From assembly GCA_937863605.1 (NCBI GenBank), contig CALMGN010000181.1:1-43986 (forward strand): DNA of 43,986 nt. Reading direction: 5' to 3'. Below the pieces are notes generated by a model. That model was not told the DNA's origin and ran no database searches. It saw only the letters and a list, made by a program, of their open reading frames with translations. Of the stretch, positions 11,727-20,850 are shown in pieces. Origin of the DNA: an uncultured Anaerolineaceae bacterium (lineage in GTDB: Bacteria; Chloroflexota; Anaerolineae; Anaerolineales; Anaerolineaceae). Position 1 is the stretch's first letter. The number at the start of each line of letters is the position of its first letter. A program made the position numbers and the translations under genes.

Positions 11727-11987
11727 TCACCGCGGTTCTACGGTTATTTTTATGGCCGTACGCACTTTTCCATCGATATCCACATCGACGAATTCAGGGA
11801 TGCAAACGATTGGGATGCCGTCTTCAGCCAAATAACCTCTGGCCAAAACCAGCGCCTTTACAGCCTGGTTAACCGCGCCAGCACCAATTGCCTGCACTTC
11901 TGCATGCTTGTGCTCGCGCATCACCCCTGCGATTGCCCCGGCTACTGCGGCGGTACGAGAGTTTGCTTTGACCTTAATGACGTCCAT
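11727..11987 (-). CDS. spoVS: SpoVS-family protein
   Basis: An 86-residue protein matching SpoVS almost end to end: MDVIKVKANSRTAAVAGAIA, then an AIGAGAVNQAVKALVLARGY core and a C-terminal KTAIKITVEPR-like strand. SpoVS is a small Alba-like protein known from spore formers but also common in non-sporulating bacteria, where its role is unclear; nucleic-acid binding is proposed. The frame stays open 12 codons further upstream. I chose the ATG at 11987 because family members begin there and AAAGGA lies about nine bases upstream. It reads away from the DnaA-box-rich gap on its right. Confidence 0.92.
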   Translation of the reverse strand: MDVIKVKANSRTAAVAGAIAGVMREHKHAEVQAIGAGAVNQAVKALVLARGYLAEDGIPIVCIPEFVDVDIDGKVRTAIKITVEPR

Positions 11988-12181
11988 GGCTAAGGATCCT
12001 TTCTCGTGGTTGGTCGACGCCAAGCAAACAATTTTGCCCAGGGACAGGAATCATACACCAATTCCATAAAAATTGTACAAGAATTACAGCCCAGATACAA
12101 GCATCTAGCAACAAACTGGTCTATACAATTAGAATTTCCTGCTTATTGTGACGGTCAGTGTCCTATTGGATTGATTCTTTT

Positions 12182-12530
12182 TTATCCATAAGGGAAATAG
12201 ATTTAGAAGCAATAGTAGGGGATGTGGAAATGTGGATAACCGCGCTGTAGCCCGGGATTAAGCCCATGGGTGAGTGAATTTAGCTGTAGTTGATCCAAAC
12301 AAGGGATAGAAAAATTGTTCCTTTATGCGCTGCCTCTGTGGAAAAAGTTGCAGAACTTTTACGGATTTTCGCACTTATTTCCACAGGCGTGATACATTTC
12401 GGTCATGAGTCATGCACACCCCCATATATGGGGGTGTGGGGTGGTGTCTTTAACCTTATAAATCGAACGTTTTTTCAGATTTGTCCACAGTTCAACCGCT
12501 TTATCCACAGTTTTTGGGGAGTTATCCACA
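12182..12530. other. Candidate replication origin: DnaA-box cluster in a gene-free block
   Basis: The 599-base gap 11988-12586 has no credible gene. It holds three exact TTATCCACA boxes: 12231-12239 (minus strand), 12501-12509 and 12522-12530 (plus). Near matches are TTATCCATA (12182-12190), ATTTCCACA (12223-12231 minus; 12377-12385 plus), TTTTCCACA (12337-12345 minus) and TTGTCCACA (12481-12489). The three boxes at 12481, 12501 and 12522 are 20 and 21 bases apart, on the same helical face. AT-rich stretches lie at about 12056-12200 and 12450-12478, the latter touching the first phased box. This is the usual build of a bacterial oriC. dnaA, dnaN and rpmH are not in the window, so the call rests on the boxes alone. 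Confidence 0.65.
12415..12438. repeat. 24-bp perfect palindrome inside the candidate origin
   Basis: A perfect inverted repeat without loop: left half CACACCCCCATA, right half TATGGGGGTGTG. The core CCCCCATAT occurs again near 12572, between the last DnaA box and the neighbouring gene. It may bind a dimeric protein. Confidence 0.75.
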
Positions 12531-12586
12531 TCTTTAGCTGGATAGGCGTAAAAATCTTGCAGGGGATACCCCCCATATTTAGTCGG

Positions 12587-13591
12587 CTATACGCCATATT
12601 TTTTCGCCCAATCATCCAGCGTTTCCTCAACACCGTCCAGATAGCTGTCCAACATGACAAGCCGGTCACCAAAAGGTTTGTCGTTCAGTCCCAGTTCTTG
12701 ACAGGCATTTTCCCACGGTTTGTGAAGATTGGCGTCCGTCTTTAGAACGCTGACAGCCAGCGTCCAGGTGCGCAGCACCAGCCATAAAGCAGCCGGTGTA
12801 TTTTCCTCATTGAGCGCTGCCGCAGCACGTTCGTAATAAAGCAAACGGGGCGGCGCCAGTCGCGCTGGCGCGTTCTCGATCTGGCTGGCCGCCTGTAAGC
12901 TTGCTTTCCAGGGCTCAAACCATTGGATCAGGTCTTGCGCGGAAAAACCATCCGGCGTGAAAAGGTCCAGCAACCCGGCAGCCAATCCCGGCCGACCTAC
13001 CGCCAGGGCGTACTCGGGGAATTGCAGAATGAAACGCCGCTCGGCCAACGGCGCTGCATGGATGGCGGTGATACTGTTGGCGGCATTCTCGAGTGCGGAC
13101 AAATAAACCAGTAGCCGGGAAGGAGAGTAGGTATCGGGCTGCAGGTGCAAACTCATCCAACTTTGCCGCGCTTCATCCGACAACTTTCGCGCCCGGTTAA
13201 CCACATTCTCAGGCTGATTAAATTGCGCTCCGGCGCTTGCCTGGGTGAATTCAAACCAGTGCTGCGTGTCATATAACGCCGCCGCATTGTTGACCAGGTG
13301 CGACCCAACCCACGGATCCACCCGCAGATGGCGCGGCTGGTGGAAAACCGTCTGCGAGTAATGGGCAATGTCAAGATGCACCTCATCCAAGAGATGAACG
13401 ACCTCACGCGGGAAGGCGGGCGTATTGGTATGCACGCAAACCAGGTCGATATCGGTGGTGCCCCCCAGCAGCGGCGAGTCGCTCAGCAGCGAACCTGTTA
13501 GATAGATGCAAGCCAACCCGCGGTAGCGCCGGGCGTATTTTTCGGCAGAGTCACGGGCGATGGAGTGTAAGGCTTCTCGGGTGATACGCAT
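12587..13591 (-). CDS. Pol-beta-superfamily nucleotidyltransferase domain protein
   Basis: A 334-residue protein. The N-terminal 100 residues hold a nucleotidyltransferase fold with the GSLLSDSP motif and the metal-binding DID of GGTTDIDLVCV (about residues 45-53), plus a third acidic position in HLDIAHY. This pattern is shared by aminoglycoside adenylyltransferase-like and minimal nucleotidyltransferases. The remaining 230 residues are mostly helical and have no motif I recognise. The substrate may be a small molecule, RNA or protein and cannot be stated. The gene's 3' end borders the candidate origin. The second deoxynucleoside kinase lies about 50 bases upstream on the same strand and may be co-transcribed. 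Confidence 0.75.
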   Translation of the reverse strand: MRITREALHSIARDSAEKYARRYRGLACIYLTGSLLSDSPLLGGTTDIDLVCVHTNTPAFPREVVHLLDEVHLDIAHYSQTVFHQPRHLRVDPWVGSHLVNNAAALYDTQHWFEFTQASAGAQFNQPENVVNRARKLSDEARQSWMSLHLQPDTYSPSRLLVYLSALENAANSITAIHAAPLAERRFILQFPEYALAVGRPGLAAGLLDLFTPDGFSAQDLIQWFEPWKASLQAASQIENAPARLAPPRLLYYERAAAALNEENTPAALWLVLRTWTLAVSVLKTDANLHKPWENACQELGLNDKPFGDRLVMLDSYLDGVEETLDDWAKKYGV

Positions 13592-13641: not shown

Positions 13642-14292
13642 CTACGCGGCGTGCCCGCCTGCCAGCGGCAGTTCGGGTTGGAAGGGCGGCAGTTGCAGCG
13701 CCTGGCGAATCCGGTTCTCGATCCAATCCAAATCCTCGGGCTTGTGGACGAAATCCAGGGCGTTACTGTCGATGACCAGCACCGGAGTTTTAGGTTTTGG
13801 ACTCAGGTAGAATTCGTCGTAAGCCTGGTTCAGTTCCTGAATGTACCCCACCTCCATGTTGCGCTCGTAAGGCCGGTCGCGCATGGTGATCCGCTGCAGC
13901 AGGGTGGTGGTCTCGGCACGCAGGTAAACAACCAGCGCCGGGGTCGCCATTTTCTCAGCCAGCGCCTCATGAACCCGGTAATACATCTCCAACTCGTCGC
14001 CTTTTAAGTTGATCGAGGCGAACAGGGCGTCTTTTTCAAAGGTATAGTCGCTGATCAGGTGCGCCCCCTGGTTCAACAGCTGCGGGACATTGCGGTTCTG
14101 CTGGTGGTAGCGGCTGAGCAGGAAAAAAATCTGGGTCTGAAAGGCATAACGCGCCCGGTCTGCGTAGAAATTGCTCAGGAACGGGTTTTCTTCGAACACT
14201 TCCAACAGCAGGTTTGCCTCGATGCGTGGTTGGAGCAGCCGGGCCAATGTCGTCTTTCCCACCCCGATGACACCTTCGATTGCAAAATACAT
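13642..14292 (-). CDS. Deoxynucleoside kinase, second paralogue
   Basis: A 216-residue dNK-family kinase. The P-loop is GVIGVGKTT at residues 7-15. FEENPFLSNFY follows as the substrate-binding segment, and RITMRDRPYERNM is the lid. At the position of the DRS motif it reads SDYTFEKD, which separates it from the paralogue at 11016 and resembles the dAK/dCK-like half of the two-kinase systems known in Firmicutes. Such pairs can form heterodimers with complementary specificity; whether these two do is an inference. A good AAGGAG ribosome-binding site precedes the ATG, and an extended -10 box lies about 55 bases upstream. Confidence 0.9.
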   Translation of the reverse strand: MYFAIEGVIGVGKTTLARLLQPRIEANLLLEVFEENPFLSNFYADRARYAFQTQIFFLLSRYHQQNRNVPQLLNQGAHLISDYTFEKDALFASINLKGDELEMYYRVHEALAEKMATPALVVYLRAETTTLLQRITMRDRPYERNMEVGYIQELNQAYDEFYLSPKPKTPVLVIDSNALDFVHKPEDLDWIENRIRQALQLPPFQPELPLAGGHAA

Positions 14293-19983: not shown

Positions 19984-20766
19984 TTATGGCAACCATTTTT
20001 GACCCCAACCTTGGATTTGACCCCTCGGGCTACGAGAGTATTTACTTTCCTCTAAAATTTCGGCAATTAATCCGCCAAAATTATCTGGTAATTTTTCGTT
20101 GTTATGACGGGCTAATGTTGCCCGGTAACTGGGATAAGCTAAAATATCAGCGAGTTGAAGCCCCGCAATATTGTTGCTTTTCGGCTTTACTTTGAGCTGC
20201 CGACTAGTCAAATAATTTGAAAATGCTGCCGCTTCTAGAAAATCTGATCCTTTTTCATAAACACGAAGGAACGATTCTTTTAATCGTAAATCAGGTTTTC
20301 CTCCCCGAGATTCTGCCATAACATCTCCCATAGCCGAATTAGCGCGCAACCACATTACGAATCGTTCGACAAGTACAGTCAAACAATAATGGTATGGATC
20401 AAAACGCCAAATTTGATAGCGTTGCTGATGTTCCAATTTATCAATGACCGTAGTGAATACGGTGTATTCCATATTGCGAATTAGTTCAAGCAATTCCTGG
20501 TTGAATGATTGTTCAACTATGGGGTCTCGGAGACTCTCGAAGGGGATTCGTTTGTTAATAATTTCCTTCCGGTGAAGGATTACGGGGTCATCAGGATGAG
20601 AATTAAAATATTTTGATTTTAAGGACTCTACTGCAGGGAAAACAACCTCCTGAACATACCCCAATTCCAAAACAATCCCCGTTAAACTCAAATATCGATG
20701 ATTGGGATTTGACGAAGCTCCAAGATCAGAGTTTCCAACCTCATCAATGTAGAGGCGATATTTCAC
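19984..20766 (-). CDS. DUF3800 domain protein
   Basis: A 260-residue protein of the DUF3800 family: YRLYIDEVGN at the start, LTGIVLE, the HRKEI motif near residue 67 and the C-terminal QLADILAYP. The family is thought to have an RNase H-like fold with conserved acidic residues, and is often found on mobile or defence-linked DNA; its function is not established. Here the usual DESG reads DEVG, though the acidic pair is kept. I chose GTG at 20766 because GGAG lies eight bases upstream and family members begin at this point. An in-frame ATG at 20784 lacks a ribosome-binding site. The gene looks clearly AT-richer than its neighbours, stands alone beside tRNA-Leu and may have been acquired. Confidence 0.82.
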   Translation of the reverse strand: MKYRLYIDEVGNSDLGASSNPNHRYLSLTGIVLELGYVQEVVFPAVESLKSKYFNSHPDDPVILHRKEIINKRIPFESLRDPIVEQSFNQELLELIRNMEYTVFTTVIDKLEHQQRYQIWRFDPYHYCLTVLVERFVMWLRANSAMGDVMAESRGGKPDLRLKESFLRVYEKGSDFLEAAAFSNYLTSRQLKVKPKSNNIAGLQLADILAYPSYRATLARHNNEKLPDNFGGLIAEILEESKYSRSPRGQIQGWGQKWLP

Positions 20767-20850
20767 AGCTTGAACTCCATGCATTCAGTAGATTTTTTGA
20801 CGACGGTCAGCAAGATAAATTATATTTGTCCTTTAAGATTTCAAAGTCCG

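Follow-up and report, generated by a model that had tools for sequence, protein, structure and literature searches.

The intergenic gap between spoVS and a nucleotidyltransferase-like gene (12024-12586, 563 bases) in a 43,986-nucleotide stretch of an uncultured Anaerolineaceae (Chloroflexota) genome, hereafter the window, is very probably the chromosomal origin of replication (oriC) of this organism. We reach this reading because the gap holds the sole DnaA-box cluster in the assembled genome, its box array recurs across the order, GC-skew minima of relatives fall at or near that array, a basal unwinding system (BUS) is present, and no skew flip occurs at dnaA. What was computed is which elements are present, how they are conserved and spaced, where the skew minimum lies, and that dnaA is separate; that replication initiates here is what we infer from this.

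Organization of the locus

The anatomy of the gap was derived from an alignment of relatives together with 83 extended loci. Its left part begins with an AT-rich DNA unwinding element at 12165-12203, recognized from the sequence, which contains a single-mismatch plus-strand DnaA box at 12182 (TTATCCATA); the corresponding DNA of relatives has an A+T content of 75%. The DnaA-trios TAG-AAG-CAA-TAG-TAG follow at 12204-12218 (plus strand; the 3'-GAT-5' type, read 3' to 5'), and comparison with the loci of relatives places a GC-rich spacer, GGGA, at the junction of trios and boxes (12219-12222). The spacer adjoins two tandem boxes on the minus strand (12223-12239), consisting of the two-mismatch box ATTTCCACA at 12223-12231 and an exact TTATCCACA box at 12231-12239. 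A single-mismatch middle box, TTTTCCACA, occupies 12337-12345 (minus strand); many relatives have a box ~140-155 bp left of the array. The array itself (12481-12530, plus strand) comprises the single-mismatch box TTGTCCACA at 12481-12489 and exact TTATCCACA boxes at 12501-12509 and 12522-12530. An earlier note, made from the sequence of the window, had counted three exact boxes and at least four with one or two mismatches, and had given a spacing of 20 and 21 bases across 12481, 12501, and 12522; all boxes that it located were recovered where it had placed them.

In relatives, the order from left to right is AT-rich stretch, trios, GC-rich spacer, minus-strand tandem boxes, often a middle box, palindrome, and plus-strand array. 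In 70 of the 83 loci, the trio-spacer-box unit scored higher than the 99th percentile obtained from dinucleotide shuffles; its median distance from the array, to the left, was 266 bp. The published BUS layout consists of a box or tandem boxes, a spacer, and at least three N-A-N trios (PMC8287927); the window has tandem boxes, a spacer, and trios of this kind, arranged as that layout describes. Because the trio-spacer-box unit has the BUS layout and lies ~260 bp left of the array, the unwinding site is assigned to 12165-12239. This corrects the earlier note on one point: the conserved unwinding element is at 12165-12239 and not in the AT-rich stretch beside the array.

The boxes exceed chance expectation: 13 with at most one mismatch were observed in the window versus 6.3 expected, a count reached in 0 of 100 shuffles. 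Genome-wide, TTWTCCACA occurs at 53 sites in 2.86 Mb, close to the 45 of a reversed-pattern control. Four of the 53 lie in one 300-bp stretch inside the spoVS/nucleotidyltransferase gap, and other 1-kb stretches contain at most two each; no other cluster of DnaA boxes exists in the assembly (299 contigs totaling 2.86 Mb, 92% complete). Two features expected of an oriC, an intergenic box cluster beyond chance and an AT-rich unwinding element beside boxes, are found together.

The left neighbor, spoVS (11727-12023, minus strand; Pfam SpoVS, E 4.9e-35), encodes an Alba-fold superfamily protein and is transcribed away from the origin. A conserved ATTGTACA at 12072-12079 (minus strand), kept in most aligned relatives that have spoVS, is probably where the spoVS promoter has its −10 region (TACAAT). 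On the right, the 334-aa nucleotidyltransferase-like gene (12587-13591, minus strand) turns its 3' end toward the three-box array; its label was assigned from a GS..D.D motif (LTGSLLSDSPLLGGTTDIDLVCVH), and Pfam and NCBIfam searches of its protein returned no match. A deoxynucleoside kinase (13642-14292, minus strand; Pfam dNK) lies upstream of it and is conserved beside it, and the spoVS and nucleotidyltransferase pair is flanked by two such kinases. Of the neighbors named in the earlier note, Pfam bore out spoVS and both kinases, and the nucleotidyltransferase stands as a motif-based name. The nucleotidyltransferase-like protein is kept beside the origin throughout Anaerolineaceae. Elsewhere in the window, a DUF3800 gene (19984-20784) has a local GC of 0.405 versus ~0.57 around it and was probably acquired recently.

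Conservation across the order

A scan based on the nucleotidyltransferase recovered 26 related loci from Anaerolineaceae and groups close to it, including Bellilinea, Longilinea, Levilinea, Ornatilinea, Thermanaerothrix, Leptolinea, Flexilinea, and MAGs; in most, boxes at spacings of 21 and 20 follow immediately downstream of the nucleotidyltransferase, and further boxes lie on the opposite strand. A fixed-spacing three-box pattern (27 positions, one free, at most three mismatches) matched 275 of 400 genomes of the order, with hits across most of the 15 families drawn, and its reversed control matched none of the 400; 80 of 150 genomes drawn from the class also matched. Conservation of the boxes in relatives had been proposed in the earlier note as a check, and the boxes are indeed kept at the same place across the order.

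The strict pattern is absent from many genomes of the own-family genera g3, g5, and g9, in which the origin may have diverged boxes or another layout. Two genomes of the family carry three or four pattern matches close together on one contig each (G222:C8:91225-114648 and G260:C25:40488-42715), possibly reflecting a duplicated or expanded origin.

The array lies at most 4 kb from spoVS in 7 of 13 own-family genomes and 10 of 12 genomes of family f12. In Longilinea arvoryzae (L012), ~4 kb separate the nucleotidyltransferase from the array, which stays by spoVS. The boxes might instead be DnaA-responsive operators of spoVS or of the nucleotidyltransferase operon, given that the block is upstream of spoVS and includes a conserved −10-like motif; such a role could also exist alongside origin function. 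We consider this highly improbable, since array and BUS are both retained in genomes that lack spoVS or have it hundreds of kb distant (G346, G147, family f14), and also where the right neighbor is a different gene.

GC skew and linkage to dnaA

Skew in genomes of the same family supports placement of the origin at the array. For G334, assembled as one contig of 3.52 Mb, the local cumulative minimum at 327,025 is 380 bp from the array at 326,645, and the opposite skew flip falls at 1.87-2.10 Mb; in G346 (2.72-Mb contig), the array at 2,120,894 is ~0.9 kb from a local cumulative minimum at 2,121,780, with the opposite flip at 0.62-0.80 Mb. Across 60 sampled stretches of the 4.15-Mb L. arvoryzae scaffold, skew is mostly negative to ~665 kb and positive beyond, with a cumulative minimum at 664,869, 13 kb from the array at 677,669, and skew flips back at 2.75-2.80 Mb. 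In all three, array and opposite flip are separated by about half a chromosome. The 13-kb offset in L. arvoryzae speaks against the placement, as does G350, the closest of the relatives sampled: its skew, although clearly negative ahead of the array, is noisy beyond it, and the local minimum is 28 kb off. The cumulative minimum of the window is at 12139, ~65 bp from the trios; the genome consists of 299 contigs, and this minimum is local to the window. The GC-skew check suggested in the earlier note thus came out in favor of its proposal, and the candidate chromosomal origin is supported by skew minima and conserved boxes alike.

Linkage between the array and dnaA was tallied in 52 genomes of the order. 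The gene is at most 2.5 kb from the array in all nine genomes of families f2, f3, f4, f10, f11, and f15, as compared with none of the 43 genomes of families f1, f5, f7, f8, f9, f12, f13, and f14, which include the family studied here; those 43 have dnaA either on a different contig or, where it shares the contig of the array, at a distance of 0.3-2.6 Mb (325 kb in G334 and 320 kb in G346). Outgroup families of the class are mixed, many having dnaA adjacent. In the dnaA-linked examples examined (f4, f20, f39), the 3' end of dnaA faces the right side of the array, the place taken here by the nucleotidyltransferase. The simplest reading is that the dnaA-linked origin is ancestral and that dnaA became separated in some lineages.

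The dnaA gene of the genome itself (L004:2907-4253) is on an 8.1-kb contig (C298 of G000), not adjacent to the array, between FAD/amine-oxidase-like and MiaB-like genes (neighbors named by eye); no dnaN was seen on that contig. The earlier note had remarked that dnaA is missing beside the candidate origin and that, if the origin is real, its context departs from the common one, and this holds, dnaA being 0.3-1 Mb away in relatives. The dnaA locus was considered as a second origin and rejected: no DnaA-box cluster was found at the genome's own dnaA, and no skew flip at dnaA was seen in either of the two chromosomes checked, L. arvoryzae and G334, where the gene is at 3.83 Mb and 1.5 kb, respectively, in the negative skew arm of each. 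In G334, a dnaA match at G334:C1:1457-1663 lies that close to the contig start and the skew minimum is at 327 kb; coordinate zero is therefore probably not the origin of that chromosome.

Box clusters away from dnaA that serve DnaA titration or reactivation exist in E. coli, and the earlier note had raised titration or regulation of DnaA as an alternative. On this precedent, the locus would resemble datA or DARS, and the origin would be elsewhere, for example, at dnaA. This is very unlikely and found no support: skew flips at the array or close by and does not flip at dnaA, the genome has no second cluster and none at dnaA, a full BUS with trios is present, and outgroups have the same array and BUS inside a dnaA-linked origin. 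A cluster of the datA/DARS type would lack an unwinding element and lie away from the skew minimum, and the present one does neither. DnaA boxes also occur in plasmid origins, which would allow for the origin of an integrated plasmid or mobile element. We regard this as next to impossible; no replication-initiator gene was found among the neighbors tested, and order-wide conservation at the chromosomal skew minimum of relatives refutes it.

DnaA protein and trio bases

The DnaA of this genome is full-length (TIGR00362) and matches the B. subtilis DnaA structure 8BTG (E 7.5e-132). Its residues N185 and I188, numbered by hand on a printed alignment, align with Asn187 and Ile190 of B. subtilis DnaA. 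At trio positions 3 to 5, those left out of scoring, the middle base in relatives' loci is A in 127 cases, C in 74, T in 6, and G in 3 (n=210; the genomes are related and the counts thus not independent), and 188 of the 210 trios begin with T. Trios with C in the middle (TCG/TCT) appear in families f1, f4, f7-f10, f12-f14, f24, and f42; those of the window have A only.

A published trio search program demanded three consecutive N-A-N trios (PMC8287927). Counted from the boxes, only 24 of 70 loci have three such trios in a row, because C often replaces A. In B. subtilis assays, cytosine, and not guanine or thymine, can substitute for the middle adenine, and it was suggested that other DnaA proteins may read other sequences (PMC10721633). 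On comparative grounds, the class-wide choice of A or C in the middle is natural evidence for the substitution rule reported for B. subtilis (PMC10721633). Trios with A or C, and with T and G nearly absent from the middle, look like a new detail.

A phased palindrome flanking the array

A 24-bp perfect palindrome, CACACCCCCATATATGGGGGTGTG, lies between the two box groups at 12415-12438. Its core, CCCCCATATATGGGGG (12419-12434), has a single exact copy in the genome, the next best match having two mismatches. A degenerate right-hand copy, CCCCCATATTTAGTCG, with three mismatches, is at 12570-12585; right copies in relatives are at +78 to +110. In the extended loci of relatives, CCCCCANATNTGGGGG (allowing up to 2 mismatches in its 14 specified bases) has a density of 2.2/kb from −290 to +130 of the array versus 0.009/kb elsewhere, a ~240-fold difference. 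Measured from the array, the positions of left copies are −41, −51/52, or −61/63 and those of right copies 78-80, 88-89, 98-100, or 110. When each genus contributes a single site, these distances are coherent in phase at 10.5 bp, with R = 0.95 for left copies (n = 26, Rayleigh p 7e-11) and R = 0.91 for right copies (n = 14, p 9e-6). Copies sometimes flank the BUS as well as both sides of the array. This placement of a palindrome around the array in helical register looks new.

The left palindrome is present in 10 of 10 genomes of f12, 4 of 4 of f9, and 4 of 5 of f14. Only 14 of 38 genomes in the own family have it, and it is therefore not essential everywhere. A common genomic motif was rejected as an explanation, given the one exact copy in this genome and the oriC copy being the only one in 1.24 Mb sampled from L. 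arvoryzae. SpoVS was likewise tried as the binding protein and rejected; with genomes divided by spoVS presence, the palindrome occurs in 24 of 40 versus 3 of 8, which is not significant (Fisher p 0.27).

From this arrangement, we infer how initiation might proceed at the proposed oriC. DnaA, encoded elsewhere, would bind two box groups facing opposite ways. At the left group (12204-12239, the BUS), the tandem pair would load DnaA onto the trios and the adjoining AT-rich stretch, and the strands would open. On the right, the three boxes of the array (12481-12530), in helical phase, would serve as a platform for nucleating a second DnaA assembly, which may feed or stabilize the first via looping of the ~250 bp between the groups; the phased palindrome between them is probably a protein-binding or bending site that would aid this folding. 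The chances appear evenly balanced that CCCCCANATNTGGGGG is the site of an undescribed Anaerolineae origin protein or DNA-bending factor working with DnaA, and that in nature the DnaA of the class recognizes either A or C as the middle trio base, which would make amino-group recognition a general rule.

Comparison with described origins and implications

An oriC distant from dnaA is already known in other bacteria. The oriC of E. coli lies between mnmG and mioC, ~40 kb from dnaA, and two DnaA subassemblies there flank a central bending site (IHF) beside the DUE. The present locus is similar in that the origin is apart from dnaA and two putative DnaA subassemblies flank a central site beside the DUE, but E. 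coli has another box layout and other neighbors, and is without a palindrome of this kind. Anaerolineae origins that adjoin dnaA (f2, f3, f4, f10, f15, and outgroups) have this array too, and most of those examined have a BUS that is the same or can be recognized; there the 3' end of dnaA faces the array, in contrast to the nucleotidyltransferase or other gene found here. As in B. subtilis (PMC8287927, PMC10721633), there are tandem boxes, a GC spacer, and trios in an AT-rich stretch, and in DnaA the residues at the positions of Asn187 and Ile190 are retained. Unlike that oriC, the locus is not beside dnaA, has a conserved three-box array facing the opposite way ~260 bp off, belongs to a class whose trios have A or C and not only A in the middle, and includes a palindrome not described there.

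Our literature search found no described Anaerolineae replication origin. Three things are new: an origin identified for this lineage, trios with A or C in the middle, and a palindrome in phase with the array. Origin-finding tools take dnaA as the default indicator gene (PMC10225481), and within this one order, oriC and dnaA are separated; the locus identified here is the correct zero point for coverage-based growth-rate estimates. The lineage also offers a natural test of two mechanisms, DnaA reading single-stranded trios and a factor binding a phased palindrome.
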